IMG/VR virus record: IMGVR_UViG_3300032334_001433
Location: 124,001 to 188,000 of that record
Reading direction: 5' to 3' (one strand)
Source of the DNA: a virus
Length of the DNA stretch: 64,000 nucleotides
Part shown: in pieces, positions 48,485 to 57,391 of the stretch
Numbering within the stretch: the first letter of the stretch is position 1
How the letters are laid out: the number at the start of each line of letters is the position of its first letter
Made by a program: the position numbers and the translations under genes
Notes under the pieces: model-generated
Seen by the model: only the letters and a program-made list of their open reading frames with translations
Told to the model about the DNA's origin: nothing
Database searches by the model: none

Positions 48485-48492
48485 TATAAATA
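48485..48492 (+). promoter_or_regulatory. T4-type late promoter for the head/virion block
   Basis: Exact TATAAATA, 33 bp before the gene at 48526. Confidence 0.75.
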
Positions 48493-48525: not shown

Positions 48526-49620
48526 ATGAAACAATTCAAAGAACTTAGAGAATCCGCTGCAATCGTCGCAAAAACATTAGCAGAAGAATTAGAAATTCTC
48601 GAGGAAGCCGCAGGGTCTACTGCAGCACATATGGGCCCAGCATTTGAAACGAGTTTCATGCAACACGCCCATCCAAATAAAGAACATCCTCCAAAATTTT
48701 CCAATGAGGAAAATATGTCTCCCGCGGAAGCACATACACATCATCACGGAAATCTAACACCGGAACATAGTGCACATATTCATGCCGGTGCAGAACAAAC
48801 TTATGCTGCAGTTCACAAACACTTAGAACAGCATCATGGCATAGGTAAAAATGAAACATTGCACGCAACTTGGACATCTAGACCAGGGCAACTATCAAAA
48901 GTATCGGGGCATGCTGGAGATAAAAATAATCCAGGCGACGCGTTATTAAGTACATCAAAAGGTAAGCATTTTGCTATTAGTTTGAAGGTAGGCGAAAAGC
49001 CTGGTTTAAGATCTCCTGGTCTTAAAGACTTAAACAAAATGGCAAAGATTCCCGAGCATCACGCCGCAGAATCTCAGCGTAATATTGATACACATAAAGA
49101 ACATCTAGTTGCAATGACAAACAGAGGTTCTGGTAAAAGCAAATTAATTACTGGATCGAATCAAAACGAACGCAATACTCAATTTAGGGCTTTAGAAAAA
49201 AGTCCTCAGCATGCGGATAGAGTTGCAAAAGTTAAAAAAGCTAGCTCGGATTTTAGATCTGGTTTAGCATCTCATTATGCAACACACTTTAATAATCTAA
49301 GCCATGAAGATAAAGCTCATGCAGTTAAGAGATTAATGAATGCAGAAGAGACTCCAACGCCGGTAATCAAAGCACATTATGATACTAAGAAGAACAAGGT
49401 AAATATTTCAAGTCCGCACGAAGAATTTAATACAATGCATTCTAAAGTAAAGCATTATAACTTCTCAAGTAAGGGAACATATATGCACGTTCATGCTGAG
49501 GATCAAAGTGGTAAACAACATCATATTGCTAAGATCTCTTTTAAAGATAAAAGTTCTCCGATGACAAATATTGTCGGTGCAGTATCACATGGTAAAGATT
49601 ATGAAAAGTTGGCAAAATGA
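48526..49620 (+). CDS. Head-content/virion-type protein with CTS-like N-terminus
   Basis: A 364-aa His-rich protein starting MKQFKELRESAA, similar to the capsid-targeting N-termini of T4 internal head proteins. Residues 14-28 are Glu-rich helix; the rest is low in motifs, with many His and Lys. Late promoter upstream and ATGA overlap downstream place it in a late operon. Function unknown; enzyme not recognised. Confidence 0.55.
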   Translation: MKQFKELRESAAIVAKTLAEELEILEEAAGSTAAHMGPAFETSFMQHAHPNKEHPPKFSNEENMSPAEAHTHHHGNLTPEHSAHIHAGAEQTYAAVHKHLEQHHGIGKNETLHATWTSRPGQLSKVSGHAGDKNNPGDALLSTSKGKHFAISLKVGEKPGLRSPGLKDLNKMAKIPEHHAAESQRNIDTHKEHLVAMTNRGSGKSKLITGSNQNERNTQFRALEKSPQHADRVAKVKKASSDFRSGLASHYATHFNNLSHEDKAHAVKRLMNAEETPTPVIKAHYDTKKNKVNISSPHEEFNTMHSKVKHYNFSSKGTYMHVHAEDQSGKQHHIAKISFKDKSSPMTNIVGAVSHGKDYEKLAK

Positions 49621-50813
49621 TTTCCTTTTCATCATTCCTAAATGAATCTGCAAATGAGGAAAAATTAACTCATTTAGAACACGCAGAAGACCATCCTATT
49701 AATGCAGGTGAAGAAGGTTTTAAACATTCATTCAACACTATGCATGAAACGCACAGAGCGTTACAAGGCAAGAAATCATCTGTATCTTTGTCAACAAAAT
49801 ATGATGGTTCTCCTTCAGTTGTTTTTGGACATCATCCAGAATCAGGTAGATTCTTTGTTGCATCTAAATCTGCATTCAATAAAAATCCAAAATTAAATTA
49901 TACTGAATCGGACATACAAAAGCATCACGGCCATGCACCTGGGCTTGTGCATAAGTTAACCGCAGCATTGCATCATTTGCCAAAAGTTACTCCAAACCGA
50001 GGAGTGTTTCAGGGCGACATAATGCATTCAGGTGTAAAGAGTAAATCAAATCCACATGGAGATGTAGAATCTTCTGCAGGATCAGTACACTTTAAGCCAA
50101 ACACTATAACTTATTCTGCAAAGAATAATACGCCAGAAGCAGCAAAAGCAAAAGAATCTAAAATAGGTGTTGCTGTTCATACTGCATATCATGGTAATAG
50201 TATGGAACATATGAAAGCACATTATAATGCAGATGTTTCGCATTTTAATAAGCATCCAGATGTCCATGTAATTGATACTTCATTCAAACATTCTTCAGCA
50301 CAATATACTCCTGAAGCACAGAAAGCTTTTGAAGGACATATGAAGAAGGCAGTTGAGGCACACAATAAATTAAAAGATTATAGTCACCTTGAAGGCCAGC
50401 ATGAAGCACATAAAGAGCATTTAAAAACCTATATTAATTCTACAGTTAGAGAAGGTAGTACTCCTACAGTTGCAGGATATAGAGCCCACTTAAAAGGTAG
50501 ATTGCAGAAAGAAGTTGATAAGGTTAAAACACCTAAAGCAAAAGAAGCAAAGACTGCAACTTTAAACGCAGCAATGGCACATATAGATAAGCATGAGCCT
50601 GCATTTAAATCTACATTAGAAGTTCATAAACATTTACAAAATGCAAAGAATGTCTTGGTACATACACTTGCAGGATCACATTATGATTACCATCATTCTA
50701 TTAACGGCAAAGCAACTAAACCTGAAGGACACGTTGCAGTAATAAACAACCGCCCAACAAAATTAGTAGATAGATCAGACTTTAGCAGAGAAAATTTTTC
50801 GAGGCAATCATGA
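49617..50813 (+). CDS. Ligase-like nucleotidyltransferase-fold protein with CTS-like N-terminus
   Basis: A 398-aa protein. After an N-terminal MISFSSFLNES motif, KYDGSPSVVFG (about 62-72) matches motif I (K-x-D-G) of the covalent nucleotidyltransferase (DNA/RNA ligase) superfamily, followed by SKSAFNKNPK and GVFQGDIM, seen in phage DUF6267-type proteins. If it uses the lysine, it would adenylate itself. The C-terminal half is helical and Lys/His-rich. ATGA overlaps on both sides. Confidence 0.65.
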   Translation: MISFSSFLNESANEEKLTHLEHAEDHPINAGEEGFKHSFNTMHETHRALQGKKSSVSLSTKYDGSPSVVFGHHPESGRFFVASKSAFNKNPKLNYTESDIQKHHGHAPGLVHKLTAALHHLPKVTPNRGVFQGDIMHSGVKSKSNPHGDVESSAGSVHFKPNTITYSAKNNTPEAAKAKESKIGVAVHTAYHGNSMEHMKAHYNADVSHFNKHPDVHVIDTSFKHSSAQYTPEAQKAFEGHMKKAVEAHNKLKDYSHLEGQHEAHKEHLKTYINSTVREGSTPTVAGYRAHLKGRLQKEVDKVKTPKAKEAKTATLNAAMAHIDKHEPAFKSTLEVHKHLQNAKNVLVHTLAGSHYDYHHSINGKATKPEGHVAVINNRPTKLVDRSDFSRENFSRQS

Positions 50814-51247
50814 AAAACTTTAAAGAATTCATAGACGAACAAGAAGTTTGGGATGAGCCAAATCCTAAGAAGTCACACGGACATATGACACCTGCACAAA
50901 AGGCAAATGCTAAAGCAAGAGCAAAGGCTGCTGGTAGACCATATCCTAATTTAGTAGACAATATGGCTGCGATGAAAGAGGACTGGCAAGATACAAAATA
51001 CAAAAATCCTGAAGGCGGCTTAACTAAATCTGGAGTAATGGCATACAGAAGAGAACATCCTGGTAGCCATTTACAAACAGCAGTGACTACTAAACCGTCT
51101 AAATTAAAACCCGGAAGTAAAGCAGCAAATAGACGTAAATCATTTTGTGCTCGTATGAGTGGTATGAAAGACAAATTAACTTCTGCTGAAACAGCGCATG
51201 ATCCAAAGTCAAGAATCAATCTTGCTTTGAAGAAGTGGAATTGTTAA
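50810..51247 (+). CDS. DUF6321-like late protein with CTS-like N-terminus
   Basis: A 145-aa protein starting MKNFKEFIDEQEVWDE. The C-terminal part KNPEGGLTKSGVMAYRREHPGS, RRKSFCARMSGM and a terminal LKKWNC match the conserved pattern that I associate with DUF6321. Function unknown. It overlaps the ligase-like gene by ATGA. Confidence 0.65.
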   Translation: MKNFKEFIDEQEVWDEPNPKKSHGHMTPAQKANAKARAKAAGRPYPNLVDNMAAMKEDWQDTKYKNPEGGLTKSGVMAYRREHPGSHLQTAVTTKPSKLKPGSKAANRRKSFCARMSGMKDKLTSAETAHDPKSRINLALKKWNC

Positions 51248-51302
51248 GACTCTTATTACCCAGGCTCATAGCGAATAATAACATCATGTCAATAGTTTGT
51301 CA

Positions 51303-52169
51303 ATGAAGAATATAAAAGAAAAGGAACTTTTGGTTAACTTTGCCCGATCAATGGGCCAGGCAGCAGATCCTGGTTTGGTTGAGGAAGTTGAACGAATTAA
51401 AAGCATAAAAGCTAGTGTCCGAAAGTCCGCAACTGAAAATATCTTCAAAGATTTAAGTGAAGCATTTAAACAAGCTAAATTGGTTCCTGTTAGTGAACCA
51501 GAAATAATTAAAGAAACAGTAGCAATAGAATATCCTAAACCTCCGAGTTTAGATGATCTAATGTTATTGCTAAATGAGAAGACGGAGACTGTAAATGAGT
51601 TGGTTCAGCCACAAGCCCCCGAAATACCCATCGCAGCAGCCTCCCCCTCCGCCCCCGAAGAAGTCGCCGAGGAAGAAACCAAAGCCGAAGAACCCGCAAT
51701 CGTAGAGAAAACACTTGCTGATAGAACATCAGATTTTATTAGTAAATCTAAAGATAGCTACCAGCAACCCGATCCATTAATTGTTGCATCTGATATGGAT
51801 GCTGTTACTAAGAAGTTAAGATTCTTAGAACAATGGATTAGTAAAATATCAATGGCAGGTCCTGGAGGCGGAGCAGGTGATTCTGTTTCGTTAACTAACT
51901 ATACAACACTTGTAACAGATCCTACTTATGTAGTAAGAAGAAAAGATTATTACATAGGTGTTAATTATGCAGGTGCAGTTAGAATCACTATGCCTACATT
52001 CGATGTAGTAGCTGGCAGGAAATTAATTATTAAAGATGAATCTGGGCATTGTTCTTCAAATCCAATTACAGTGGATGGAACAGTTGATAATGATGCAGGC
52101 GGATTTATTCTCCAAATGGATAATGGTGCAATACAAATGATTTATAGAAATGGTTGGAGAATAATATGA
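51303..52169 (+). CDS. Virion structural protein
   Basis: A 288-aa protein (ATG 51303; an upstream TTG is possible). The middle is Pro/Glu/Ala-rich linker (about 88-145); the C-terminal domain starts at GPGGGAGDSVSLTNY, a Gly-rich junction typical of fibre or neck proteins of marine T4-like phages. No enzyme motifs. It overlaps the next gene by ATGA. Confidence 0.6.
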   Translation: MKNIKEKELLVNFARSMGQAADPGLVEEVERIKSIKASVRKSATENIFKDLSEAFKQAKLVPVSEPEIIKETVAIEYPKPPSLDDLMLLLNEKTETVNELVQPQAPEIPIAAASPSAPEEVAEEETKAEEPAIVEKTLADRTSDFISKSKDSYQQPDPLIVASDMDAVTKKLRFLEQWISKISMAGPGGGAGDSVSLTNYTTLVTDPTYVVRRKDYYIGVNYAGAVRITMPTFDVVAGRKLIIKDESGHCSSNPITVDGTVDNDAGGFILQMDNGAIQMIYRNGWRII

Positions 52170-53050
52170 CATATCTTTTTAATAGTAATACAAATGCAAC
52201 CATCTCCAATGAAATTGAGATTAAGAATGATGTTGGTAATTCAATACCTGTTATTGCAACAGTAAAGAACGGAAACGCTGTAGTATCATTATTCAATCCT
52301 TTACCAGTCACACTTGGTAGCGGCAACATACAAATATTTGGAAATACTAATATAATTGATACTGTTACTGTTTCATCAACTCCTCAAAATCCAGTCCATG
52401 TACACTTGACGGAAATAGGTACTGCAAATTTGATGACAATGGATTATATGCGAGTAGCAGGTAATGTTTATTTAAACAATAATTCATCCGTAGTATCCAT
52501 ATCAAATCCATTGCCAGTTACCATATCAAATATAGTTACTGTAATTGCAGAAGAAGCCGATGGAAATCTATTTTCCATTAATAATCATTTAATCAATACA
52601 AATCGTGGATGGACGATGGATGATACTATGCGTCCAGTTATAAGTTTTCGCGTATCAAATGTTAGATCAATATCTGAATTGACTAAAATTATAGAATATG
52701 AAATTGGTAATAATAATGCAAATCAAAGCACTATTATCTATGAATGGTATGAGGGAGAAATTAATTTATCGGGTGCAGCTGTTTCTGCATGGACTTCTGT
52801 TGGAAATAAAACTCAGTATAGAATTTATCAAGACAAATATAGTAGTAATCAAGGTAATACTTTTACACCAAACAGTTCAATTTTGAGACATTCTGGTATT
52901 ATTATTGGAAAAAATACTTCTGGAGACGAAGGACCGGCAACAATGTATGGAGGGTCAACACCTAATATGTTGACTCTTTGTATGCGTAGAGTTGATAATT
53001 CTACAAAACTTGATGTTTGGTTTGCATTTACTTTTAAAGAATTAATTTAA
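52166..53050 (+). CDS. Virion structural / fibre-like protein
   Basis: A 294-aa protein rich in Asn, Ser, Thr and Val with short beta-repeat-like stretches (NPLPVTLGSGNIQIFGN, NPLPVTISNIVTVI). This composition is typical of tail or neck fibres. ATGA overlap with the previous gene; it ends before a late promoter. Confidence 0.6.
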   Translation: MTYLFNSNTNATISNEIEIKNDVGNSIPVIATVKNGNAVVSLFNPLPVTLGSGNIQIFGNTNIIDTVTVSSTPQNPVHVHLTEIGTANLMTMDYMRVAGNVYLNNNSSVVSISNPLPVTISNIVTVIAEEADGNLFSINNHLINTNRGWTMDDTMRPVISFRVSNVRSISELTKIIEYEIGNNNANQSTIIYEWYEGEINLSGAAVSAWTSVGNKTQYRIYQDKYSSNQGNTFTPNSSILRHSGIIIGKNTSGDEGPATMYGGSTPNMLTLCMRRVDNSTKLDVWFAFTFKELI

Positions 53051-53066
53051 CCAAACATTCTTATCT

Positions 53067-53074
53067 TATAAATA
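53067..53074 (+). promoter_or_regulatory. T4-type late promoter
   Basis: Exact TATAAATA, 31 bp before the gene at 53106. Confidence 0.75.
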
Positions 53075-53105
53075 AACAGTATCAACTATATTCTAATGGA
53101 AAACA

Positions 53106-55013
53106 ATGGACTTTAAAGAATTCATCACAGAAGCGCCAGAAAGAACGGCCGCTTTTGCCTTTGGGAGATTCAATCCTCCCACCGTAGGGCACGAAAAACT
53201 AATAAACAAAGTTAAAGATACCGCTAAGGAACATGGCGCAACTGCGCACATCGTCACATCGCATTCTGAAGGTTCTTCAAAAGATCCGTTACCTCAGAAA
53301 GCTAAAATTGGATATCTTAAAAAAGTATCGGGCAAAGGCCTTAAGGTTTCTGGTTCGTCTAAAGAAGCACCTAGTGTACTAGATGCAGCAACAAATCTAC
53401 ATAAACAAGGTTACAAACATTTGGTTATGGTAGCTGGTTCTGATCGTGTAGATGAGTATCACAAACTATTACACAAATATAATAATGTACCAAGTAAACA
53501 CGGGCATTATAACTTTAAATCAATTAAAGTAGTTTCTGCAGGACAAAGAGATCCTGATGCAGAAGGTGTAGAAGGTATGTCTGGCACAAAAATGCGAGCA
53601 CATGCTAGAGCAGGTAATATGGACAAGTTTAAATCTGGTCTACCTGCAGCCCTGCATCCGCACGCTGAAGAAATTGCAAATCATATTAGATCAGTAAAAG
53701 AAGATTTTGAGAATCCGTATCGTCATGATTGGGGTACTCCTGAAGGAACTCTGTATATGCAGAAGATGACTCCTGGCGAAGATAAAAAGATGTGTCCATC
53801 CGGGTCAGTTTGGAGCACAACTAAATCAAAATGCGTTCCAATTAGAGAAGCATACCATGCATCTGAAATATTCAATATTGGTACAGTTGTAGAATCTAAA
53901 ACAGGTGATCTTGGAGAAATTGTTTATCGCGGTTCTTCTTATGTTACATTAGTATTAGAATCTGGAAATACTAAAAAATATTGGATTAATGATATACGCG
54001 AAAGCAATAAAGTATTGAAGATTAAAGAATTTGTTAGAAAATATGATGTTGTAGAGACTAAAGATTTAAGAAGAATTCCTGCTTTATTAATGTCTAAAGA
54101 ACAATTAGTTGAGAGAAATAATCAATCTATGGAAGTTGAGTATAATGGATATCATACTAAAAACCTTCATATGTGCGAAGGTGCATCTAAACAATTAAAA
54201 GATTTAATTGCAACATCTACGGCGAATTCAAAATACATATTACAAGCAATTCAAGCAACAGATAGTTATCTTGGCATAGAAAAAGAAGCAACTAAAACAG
54301 GATTTGCCGATGATAAGATGGTTCACGATTTTAATATGTACATGGCAATTGCCCATGATACCTTAAATATGCTTGGATACGGAGATGAGACATTGCTGTA
54401 TATGAAAAAACACGTAGCAGAAATTGGCAAATTAAGCCTACACAAGGATGGTACTATGGCAAACGAAACAGGATCAACTGTTCCTGTATTTGGACAGGGA
54501 GATGTTGCGGAAGGCGTAAATGCTGCAAACTTTAGAATGGTTTCTAGAGCAGGCCCTGATGGTAAAGAAAAATGGGTTAAACAAAGAAATACCCCAATTA
54601 TTAGAGACAAAAAGGTAGACCAAATGAACGATACAGATAAAGACGGAATTCCTAACGGTTCAGAAGGACAATTGCCGTCTACAAAGAAAGCACTTTCTTC
54701 ACTAAGAAGATCGCTAGGAATCCCGGTTAAAGAAACCTATGTCCCAGATCCTCCAACAGCAACAAGAGATATTAATGCCTCTCCTAACAAAGAAGTTTAT
54801 CATGGTATAGATATGCCAATTGCGGACCAGGGTTACCCGGATAAACCATTGGGATTGGCTTCATTCAAATCTTATTTGTCTACTCCACAAACAAAGAAAA
54901 TTGAAGCAGATAAGAGCAAGGAAATGCAAGCAGTTCATAGAGACAAGGCAGAACTTGGCACATCTAGTACTGCATATAAACAAATGATTAAAGCTCACTC
55001 TCAGGATAATTAA
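53106..55013 (+). CDS. HxGH-type nucleotidyltransferase fused to a large C-terminal region, CTS-like N-terminus
   Basis: A 635-aa protein. After MDFKEFITEAPERT comes FGRFNPPTVGH (20-30; the T-x-G-H motif of cytidylyl/adenylyltransferases) and MSGTKMRAHA (about 160-169; the ISSTxxR-like motif), so residues 15-200 are a nucleotidyltransferase domain. The rest has no known fold, with an EF-hand-like loop at 509-520 (DTDKDGIPNGSE). Late promoter. The substrate is unknown; NMN- or phosphopantetheine-type adenylyl transfer are possibilities. Confidence 0.75.
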   Translation: MDFKEFITEAPERTAAFAFGRFNPPTVGHEKLINKVKDTAKEHGATAHIVTSHSEGSSKDPLPQKAKIGYLKKVSGKGLKVSGSSKEAPSVLDAATNLHKQGYKHLVMVAGSDRVDEYHKLLHKYNNVPSKHGHYNFKSIKVVSAGQRDPDAEGVEGMSGTKMRAHARAGNMDKFKSGLPAALHPHAEEIANHIRSVKEDFENPYRHDWGTPEGTLYMQKMTPGEDKKMCPSGSVWSTTKSKCVPIREAYHASEIFNIGTVVESKTGDLGEIVYRGSSYVTLVLESGNTKKYWINDIRESNKVLKIKEFVRKYDVVETKDLRRIPALLMSKEQLVERNNQSMEVEYNGYHTKNLHMCEGASKQLKDLIATSTANSKYILQAIQATDSYLGIEKEATKTGFADDKMVHDFNMYMAIAHDTLNMLGYGDETLLYMKKHVAEIGKLSLHKDGTMANETGSTVPVFGQGDVAEGVNAANFRMVSRAGPDGKEKWVKQRNTPIIRDKKVDQMNDTDKDGIPNGSEGQLPSTKKALSSLRRSLGIPVKETYVPDPPTATRDINASPNKEVYHGIDMPIADQGYPDKPLGLASFKSYLSTPQTKKIEADKSKEMQAVHRDKAELGTSSTAYKQMIKAHSQDN

Positions 55014-55014
55014 A

Positions 55015-55452
55015 ATGAATGAAGAATTGGTCCAATCTCTCAATAAGGTATTAGGCAATACCTTTGTAATGTATTATAAGACACATAGTTATCATTGGAA
55101 TATTACCGGTGCAGATTTCTATGAGTATCATACATTCTTGCAAAGCATATACGAAGAAGTATATGAAGCAATAGATACAACTGCAGAACATATTCGAGCA
55201 TTGGATGCGTTTGCTCCTACATCGTTAATGAAATTGAAGAATTTTGCATCTGTTCCTGAAGATGATACGGTTGTTCCTCCAATGCAAATGATAGCAAATT
55301 TAATAACTGCAAATGATATTGTTATCTTATCATTAATGCAAGGTTATAAGATTGCAGAAGCTGCCGGAGAAATTGGTGTATCTAATTTTCTACAGGATAG
55401 AGTTATAGCACATCAGAAACACGCTTGGATGCTTAAATCTACATTAAAATGA
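55015..55452 (+). CDS. Dps-like ferritin-fold protein
   Basis: A 145-aa protein. YYKTHSYHWNITGADFYEYH followed by YEEVYEAIDTTAEHIRAL has the His and acidic ligands of the Dps ferroxidase site between subunits. Dps oxidises iron and protects DNA. It lies between two CTS-type late genes, so it may be a head-content or late stress protein. It overlaps the next gene by ATGA. Confidence 0.82.
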   Translation: MNEELVQSLNKVLGNTFVMYYKTHSYHWNITGADFYEYHTFLQSIYEEVYEAIDTTAEHIRALDAFAPTSLMKLKNFASVPEDDTVVPPMQMIANLITANDIVILSLMQGYKIAEAAGEIGVSNFLQDRVIAHQKHAWMLKSTLK

Positions 55453-55904
55453 TTTCTTTTATTGAATTCATAGACGAAGAACTTTCCGAAAGGGAAATGG
55501 ACGAAATAGCAGACCGTTTAAAATGGGAAGATATTGCCGACCTATATTCGCCAGATGAATTCATAATAGAAGAATTGGAAGAGTCGTTAACAGCTTCTTC
55601 TAGATTAAGAAAAGGCCAGCGCTTTAAGTCTAGAAAAACAGCTGTTGGTCAAGCTAGAAAGATGAAGTTAAAAAGAGCTTCTTCATTAGAAATATTAAAA
55701 AGAAGAGCAAATGCGGCAGCTCATAGAGTTTTACAGAAAAGAATATTGAGAAGTAGAAATAAAAAACAATTATCTGCTCAACAAAAAGATGCATTGGAAA
55801 AACAAGTCAAGACAATGATGGCATCGCAAGGAAATTTGGCTCAGAAATTATTACCAAAAATAAGAGCTTTAGAACGATCTAGATTGTCTGTTAAGAAAAA
55901 GTAA
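55449..55904 (+). CDS. Small basic late protein with CTS-like N-terminus
   Basis: A 151-aa protein starting MISFIEFIDEELSE. The N-terminal third is acidic; the rest is strongly basic (Lys/Arg-rich helices). It resembles internal head proteins that bind packaged DNA. No enzyme motif. Confidence 0.6.
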   Translation: MISFIEFIDEELSEREMDEIADRLKWEDIADLYSPDEFIIEELEESLTASSRLRKGQRFKSRKTAVGQARKMKLKRASSLEILKRRANAAAHRVLQKRILRSRNKKQLSAQQKDALEKQVKTMMASQGNLAQKLLPKIRALERSRLSVKKK

Positions 55905-55954: not shown

Positions 55955-57391
55955 ATGCAAAGAATCTCAAACGATTTATTTGAAGCAATCAGAGCTGTCA
56001 CACACCCTGTTTTAACTGAAGCAAAACTTGACCCAGTTGGTAAAGAAGATGCAGATGTTGACAACGATGGTAAAGTAGGTAAGTCGGACGACTATTTAAA
56101 GAATCGTCGCAAGGCAATTTCCGCTTCTATTAAAAAAGAAGAAGTTGAACAACAAAACGAAGCTAAATCAGAGTCCAAAAAAGATTTCCAGGCGCGTCAA
56201 GAAAGATTAGCTGCAGCTGCTGCTCAAACTGCAAAAGATCCAGCACGTTTAAAAAGAATGATGAATATTCCTGGATACTCAGCGGCAATGGATTTAGCTA
56301 AAAAAACAACTACAAAAGAAGAAGTTGAACAAGCCGACGAAGCTGCTGCCTTTGATCCAATGAAACATATTACTGATCCGCAAAAGAAAAAAGAACTTGC
56401 ACCGTATGCTAAACTTGTAAAGCGTAGTAGCTATGCTGATCGTGCAGCAATGCTTAAGGCCGGCGGAGTTAAAGAAGAAGTTGAAGAATTAGATGAAGGT
56501 AAAATGGATCATATGTCGTTGTCGAGTTTATGGCATCAGCATGCTAGACATAATTATTCATCGGATCAAGGCTATGGGCATGGTGAAGGTAGCATGAAGA
56601 ATGGTGCTCATGCCGCCACAGCAATTGAAAATCATGTTCGTAAGCATTATGGAAATAAAGTTGCTGATGATATGGTATCACATTCAGATATGGCAACTGC
56701 TGATGCTGAATATGCCGGTCCAGCAGAATCCAAGAAAATTCAGAAAGAAGCTGGTCAATTAAGAGCGAAGCATAAGATTGAAGGTAGTCTTCACGGACAC
56801 CATGCAATGCCCGTTGCCGAAAATACTCTTTCAGCAAAAGCTGGTCGTATGGGTGCAGACTTAGGCAAGCCAGGTAAAAATTTCTCAAAGATCTCTAAAG
56901 CAGCGGCAAAAAGATATGGTAGCGAGGCAGCTGGAGAACGTGTTGCTGGAGCAGTTCTAGCAAAAATGAGAAAAGAAGAAGCTGATCTAGAAGAAAGTGT
57001 AGCAGAAACAATTGTTAAGCATAATGACTTTACAATTGAAATTACTGATAATCCTACATTCGGAGATTTCCTAAGAGCAGTTCAATCTATTGTTAGAACA
57101 GACGAAGAAGCGGCCCAGGCAGAACTTATTTCAATTGCTGAGCAAGCATATAAAGAAAATAATGATGATATTATTATTGAATCCTTCACAAGAATGGAAA
57201 TTCAAGATAAGATCAATGCACATCGTAAAGCAGGCAATACTGTAAGCGATGATAAATATAGTACAAAAAGCGGACAACCTTATGCTGAATATGTCGTAAC
57301 TGATGGTGACGGTGGCCGTAAGAAATACATACACCATGGTTCGGTACGTCGTTTGGAATCACTTCCACCGGCTAAAAAAGCTAAAGAATAA
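55955..57391 (+). CDS. Late protein with EF-hand-like loop and repeated KEEVE motifs
   Basis: A 478-aa protein. Near the N-terminus an EF-hand-like loop (Asp34, Asp36, Asp38, Gly39, Asp45) follows a short hydrophobic start. Three KEEVEQ/KEEVEE motifs, each followed by a D/N-E-A or D-E-G, separate low-complexity Lys/Ala blocks. The C-terminal part (about 345-400) looks like a small folded domain. Possibly a processed head protein; function unknown. Confidence 0.55.
   Translation: MQRISNDLFEAIRAVTHPVLTEAKLDPVGKEDADVDNDGKVGKSDDYLKNRRKAISASIKKEEVEQQNEAKSESKKDFQARQERLAAAAAQTAKDPARLKRMMNIPGYSAAMDLAKKTTTKEEVEQADEAAAFDPMKHITDPQKKKELAPYAKLVKRSSYADRAAMLKAGGVKEEVEELDEGKMDHMSLSSLWHQHARHNYSSDQGYGHGEGSMKNGAHAATAIENHVRKHYGNKVADDMVSHSDMATADAEYAGPAESKKIQKEAGQLRAKHKIEGSLHGHHAMPVAENTLSAKAGRMGADLGKPGKNFSKISKAAAKRYGSEAAGERVAGAVLAKMRKEEADLEESVAETIVKHNDFTIEITDNPTFGDFLRAVQSIVRTDEEAAQAELISIAEQAYKENNDDIIIESFTRMEIQDKINAHRKAGNTVSDDKYSTKSGQPYAEYVVTDGDGGRKKYIHHGSVRRLESLPPAKKAKE

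Follow-up and report, generated by a model that had tools for sequence, protein, structure and literature searches.

A probable T4-like capsid-targeting tag shared by neighbouring phage genes, including two probable enzymes

Five neighbouring genes of a T4-like virus, two of them encoding probable enzymes, begin with the same short N-terminal tag that phage T4 uses to load proteins into its head and inject them with its DNA. The same tag marks enzymes already detected in particles of related marine phages, which would explain how those enzymes get there. The stretch analysed here (the window) comprises 64,000 nucleotides, bases 124,001-188,000 of the 202,665-bp record IMGVR_UViG_3300032334_001433. 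An earlier note, made from these letters alone, had likened the N-termini of five late proteins to the T4 internal-protein sequence MKTYQEFIAE, cut by gp21 after the Glu, and had proposed that enzymes (a nucleotidyltransferase and a ligase-like protein) are packaged in the head and injected with the DNA. The note was right about what is there: all five open reading frames (ORFs) and their N-termini are exactly as it described. Its interpretation is also supported, although the two enzyme assignments hold at different strengths, and packaging, cleavage after Glu and injection in this virus remain inferred.

The N-terminal tag and its genomic setting

The features of the locus are as follows, in window coordinates, with a slash marking the presumed cleavage point.

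48485..48492 (+), T4-type late promoter TATAAATA, 41 nt upstream of the 48526 start
48526..49620 (+), tagged protein 1 (364 aa), MKQFKELRE/SA; His-rich, no known family; likely second site EELEILEE/A at residues 20-28
49617..50813 (+), tagged protein 2 (398 aa), MISFSSFLNE/S; DUF6267, ligase-like KYDG motif; leader predicted disordered, folded domain predicted from about residue 20
50810..51247 (+), tagged protein 3 (145 aa), MKNFKEFIDE/Q; C-terminal DUF6321
51297..52169 (+), untagged neighbour, no family (start uncertain)
52166..53050 (+), untagged neighbour, no family
53067..53074 (+), T4-type late promoter TATAAATA, 39 nt upstream of the 53106 start
53106..55013 (+), tagged protein 4 (635 aa), MDFKEFITE/A; cytidylyltransferase/NMNAT-like domain (GRFNPPTVGH, MSGTKMR)
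55015..55452 (+), Dps/ferritin-like protein, untagged (internal negative control)
55449..55904 (+), tagged protein 5 (151 aa), MISFIEFIDE/E; phrog_23027
55955..57391 (+), possible further head-core protein (478 aa), MQRISNDLFE/A; a weaker candidate

To evaluate whether the shared N-termini exceed chance, the pattern ^M.{1,2}[FY]..[FL].{1,2}E was applied to the 262 ORFs called across the whole record, which was read as overlapping stretches. Six real ORFs matched, against 0.64-0.76 expected from shuffles and random positions, and five of these lie within eight consecutive genes (simulated P about 1e-5). The sixth (MKKFNQFRED, 277 aa), at positions 106437-107270 of the whole record (G000), lies between the gp20 portal and gp21 protease genes, where T4 has its core genes, and contains EEVEELDE-type repeats. 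We then trained a position-specific matrix on N-termini of DUF6267 and DUF6321 homologues from other viruses, leaving out two near-identical loci, although one near-identical N-terminus probably remained through a second locus of the same contig. The same six proteins ranked first to sixth of 262 (scores 9.4-19.1; next 5.9; 0.3 expected above 8). Proteins 49617 and 50810 are not independent of this matrix, whereas 48526, 53106, 55449 and 106437 belong to other families that were not used in training. Motif thresholds were set after looking at the data, such that the P values given here and below are guides rather than pre-planned tests. The weaker candidate at 55955 ranked 8th; its NDLFE/A resembles the capsid-protein site NALFE/A, and it carries KKEEVEQ.DEA-type repeats, making it a possible extra protease substrate.

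The conserved columns of the matrix (F4, F/Y7, L/I8 and E10) are those identified by mutagenesis of T4 IPIII, in which positions 4 and 7 govern targeting and positions 8 and 10 govern processing (PMC9026906). Proteins 49617, 50810 and 55449 conform fully to this leader of about 10 residues, and 53106 is one residue shorter. Protein 48526 conforms only partly, with Glu at position 9 and Arg at position 8, and is the weakest in the window; the tag of 106437 is likewise imperfect. However, a homologue of 48526 in two related viral loci (L052/L053) has the full form, MKNFKSFIKE. T4 gp23, which is cleaved after E65, has FGSFLTE/A at that point, close to MKNFSSFLTE/A of cyanophage S-CREM2 gp154.

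The note had named a gp21-type protease in the same genome as a check on its reading, and this protease is present at G000 107773-108216 (PF03420, S77 type, E=1e-36), with the T4 catalytic triad residues H85, S140 and D168 conserved. A gp23 capsid protein (PF07068, E=3e-144) is encoded in the same record. Late promoters TATAAATA lie 41 and 39 nt upstream of 48526 and 53106, the first genes of the two operons. The count of TATAAATA in the window alone is not above chance, but its placement is: 14 of 35 such sites in the record lie 20-70 nt upstream of a start, against 1.6 expected, and others precede the scaffold and tail genes. The tagged genes are therefore probably late genes, on sequence evidence only and without transcript data. 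Elsewhere in the record, fifteen large proteins (G000 1-20603 and 198824-201810) share another N-terminus, roughly MFTFQNLxxxGxF, in one region and are probably tail-fibre or adhesin paralogues, while a 2,719-codon ORF running off the window end (window 58031 to G000 190190) probably encodes a giant tail-fibre protein.

Occurrence in related viruses and in published virions

Across 94 related viral loci, 214 ORFs carry the tag, 212 of them on the coding-sense strand, and these fall into 19 non-homologous sequence clusters. DUF6321 proteins keep the tag and the C-terminal domain while the middle varies, and the cytidylyltransferases keep F..F..EA before a linker of 0 to about 90 residues. One search pattern contained MDFKEFIT itself, which biases the transferase loci, but the GenBank phages in the linker comparison were found without it. 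The residue at P3 is L or I in 101 of 117 distinct tagged proteins, in keeping with the L/I-x-E processing rule; no N-terminal peptides were available, and removal of the leader was not measured here. In DUF6267, M1 and E10 are invariant over 34 sequences. In contrast, the neighbouring Dps carries the tag in 0 of 26 cases. In two phages in which no S77 protease was detected (HTVC035P and MinM2), the DUF6321 protein lacks the tag and starts directly at its domain. The tag is also absent from DUF6267 in P-SSM4, S-SM1, S-CRM01 and HTVC008M, from the cytidylyltransferase of several viral contigs, and from those of GAP32 and Deifobo, which do have S77; such proteins may be unpackaged or carried by a tagged partner. 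Two further tagged proteins in related loci stood out: L034:1865-2539 has a PDSS...SLEIKK stretch resembling a PD-(D/E)xK nuclease motif, and L045:8976-11084 is a cytidylyltransferase fused to a P-loop domain (GGPNSGKD), reminiscent of NadR.

To probe whether the tag corresponds to presence in particles, which the note had proposed as a test, we turned to published virion proteomes of relatives; no proteomics exists for this virus, and the matter is left undecided for its own heads. In S-CREM2 (PMC10665884, Table 3), the strict pattern marks SAM hydrolase gp6, kinase gp14, gp15, gp136 and cytidylyltransferase gp154, that is, 5 of 28 virion-detected non-structural or unknown proteins against 1 of 167 undetected (P=2.4e-4). 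The four top-scoring non-structural proteins by the matrix (cytidylyltransferase, kinase, SAM lyase and gp136) are all in the virion (P=3.5e-4), and gp6 matches the S-AdoMet lyase family (E=2e-19). Ranking all S-CREM2 non-structural proteins by the motif gives an AUC of only 0.56, as expected when most virion proteins are tagless, indicating that the motif is specific but not sensitive. Virion detection could partly reflect CsCl carry-over, as the S-CREM2 authors note. The S-SM1 cytidylyltransferase reported in virions (PMC3037559) starts MKKFSAFLNEA, and the S-CRM01 kinase, reported in virions according to PMC10665884, starts MISFDQFLSEK and has tagged neighbours. In S-SCSM1, the virion NMNAT (PMC9602691) starts MKSFLQFLKEA, but it is the only one of 19 virion proteins of other or unknown function that matches the strict pattern, against 3 of 234 undetected ones; the enrichment was not reproduced in this phage beyond NMNAT. 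Pooled over S-CREM2 and S-SCSM1, P=1.5e-4. The terminase small subunit also matches the regular expression in two cyanophages. The S-CREM2 protein annotated as Cas9 (gp12; OR473000 7704-10313) has no Pfam match and we do not call it Cas9; it and homologues in S-H34, S-B68 and S-CRM01 carry a conserved tag-like FxSFxxEA about 17-25 residues in rather than at the start.

Proposed enzyme-like cargo

Protein 53106 is a cytidylyltransferase/NMNAT-like protein of the HIGH superfamily (phrog_3041, E=2e-65). Both the (T/H)xGH motif (GRFNPPTVGH) and the C-terminal S/T-rich motif (GMSGTKMR) are conserved with the virion homologues, although Pfam PF01467 reaches only 18.7 bits, under the cut-off of 21, a sequence search of the transferase domain against solved structures found nothing, and the substrate is not known. 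Protein 49617 is DUF6267, with a confident structural model (pLDDT 88.8) in which residues 1-14 are predicted disordered. It possesses the KxDG motif I and other ligase-type motifs of covalent nucleotidyltransferases (DNA/RNA ligases) in order: K61, D63, G64, E370, G371 and K382 are invariant in 34 sequences, with the assignment of the last three to motifs IV and V being our reading. The best PDB fold matches are ligase adenylation domains but are not significant (E=0.18 and above), and viral RNA ligases reach E=0.014, such that the comparison neither establishes nor excludes a ligase adenylation-domain fold. In S-PM2, DUF6267 and the transferase appear fused. For 48526, the AlphaFold model was unusable (pLDDT 36), and a possible PD-(D/E)xK-like nuclease reading (residues around SLK) is no more than a guess. 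Nearby genes in relatives include a tagged HAD protein matching a polynucleotide-kinase family (phrog_415, E=3e-7) and a P-loop ATPase in HTVC008M matching polynucleotide kinase (phrog_505, E=9e-8). An injected nucleic-acid end-repair or NAD+ kit is therefore plausible, albeit by inference.

Interpretation and comparison with known systems

We favour, with high confidence, the explanation that the shared N-termini are T4-type capsid-targeting sequences. In this view, the tagged proteins are made late in infection from two operons, their first roughly 10 residues dock them to the prohead core, the gp21-type protease cuts after the Glu, and the freed enzymes stay in the head and enter the next host with the DNA. 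The cargo would be an NMNAT/cytidylyltransferase-like enzyme, a ligase-like DUF6267 protein, a DUF6321 protein and two proteins of unknown function, and its likely purpose immediate protection or takeover of the host, such as NAD+ or nucleic-acid-end repair or anti-defence. The analysis itself demonstrates the tag, its conservation and modularity, the protease, the late promoters and the co-occurrence of the tag with virion detection in relatives, whereas docking, cleavage, injection and function are inferred, ejection into the host not having been examined.

An alternative, which we consider unlikely, is that the tag binds the proteins to the prohead core as scaffold or core components (like T4 gp67/gp68), with cleavage merely disassembling them, such that they are structural rather than injected effectors. 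The position of 106437 between gp20 and gp21 is consistent with this, as is the fact that T4 gp22, gp67, gp68 and gp24 are also gp21 substrates (PMC5694885), several having similar sites. However, the cargo includes enzyme families with conserved catalytic motifs (cytidylyltransferase, kinase, SAM lyase), and its composition varies widely between related viruses, unlike core scaffold. It is still less likely that the N-termini serve another localisation or interaction role, for example complex assembly or membrane docking, and resemble the T4 sequence by convergence: the pattern is short and amphipathic, some homologues lack it and the terminase small subunit also has FxxLxE, but the match falls at exactly the four T4-critical positions and is accompanied by the L/I-x-E rule, virion co-detection and coexistence with the S77 protease. 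Chance, or a common ancestral N-terminus of duplicated genes, is rejected: although the genes are adjacent and one sequence cluster links the DUF6321, cytidylyltransferase and 55449 families in relatives, it is disfavoured by the shuffles, the untagged Dps neighbour, the 19 unrelated clusters, the otherwise non-homologous tagged proteins with their variable linkers and the independent S-CREM2 result.

A broader possibility, which we judge somewhat more likely than not, is that marine and freshwater T4-like phages share a modular head-loading tag that delivers a swappable enzyme kit with the genome, comprising NMNAT-like transferase, ligase-like DUF6267, polynucleotide-kinase-like phosphatase, nuclease-like proteins, SAM lyase and protein kinases. 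This would be the mechanism behind the unexplained enzymes in cyanophage virions, where cytidylyltransferases, kinases and a SAM-degrading enzyme have been reported and authors could not tell packaging from contamination, and would let cargo be read directly from genome sequence, turning proteins of unknown function into testable injected effectors across abundant marine phages. It also suggests that enzymes, not only small restriction inhibitors, are routine T4-type head cargo. A search of open-licence literature found no paper linking capsid targeting with cyanophages beyond one T4 review that cites a cyanophage paper. The targeting mechanism is already known from T4; what is new is its evident use for enzyme cargo in T4-like environmental phages, and its match to unexplained virion enzymes.

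The closest known system is that of the T4 internal proteins IpI, IpII, IpIII and Alt, which share the leader of about 10 residues with aromatic or hydrophobic residues at 4 and 7, L/I at 8 and Glu at 10, its presence on otherwise unrelated proteins, the S77 protease in the genome and late-type promoters. Here, however, the cargo is mostly enzyme-like rather than small GmrSD inhibitors, the genes form one cluster far from the head genes, and some tags have Glu at 9. The virion-associated cytidylyltransferase/NMNAT and kinases of S-SM1, S-CREM2, S-SCSM1 and S-CRM01 include the same cytidylyltransferase family with the same tag, also in T4-like phages with S77, but the passages of those papers that we consulted do not mention a targeting tag and leave carry-over open, and in S-SM1 and S-CRM01 the DUF6267 neighbour is untagged. 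The P1 DarB capsid-targeting N-terminus and the phiKZ/SPN3US ejection-protein propeptides likewise provide an N-terminal packaging signal on delivered proteins alongside a prohead protease, but with different sequences and proteases (S80 type in phiKZ); the DarB signal is longer than 9 residues, and no shared motif was found among P1 Dar proteins (PMC9024508). Finally, head-packaged ARTs, Nudix, MuF-fused and polyvalent proteins (PMC9503650) are also effector enzymes predicted to be injected from the head, but are recognised by fusion to head proteins or by gene context rather than by a short shared leader.
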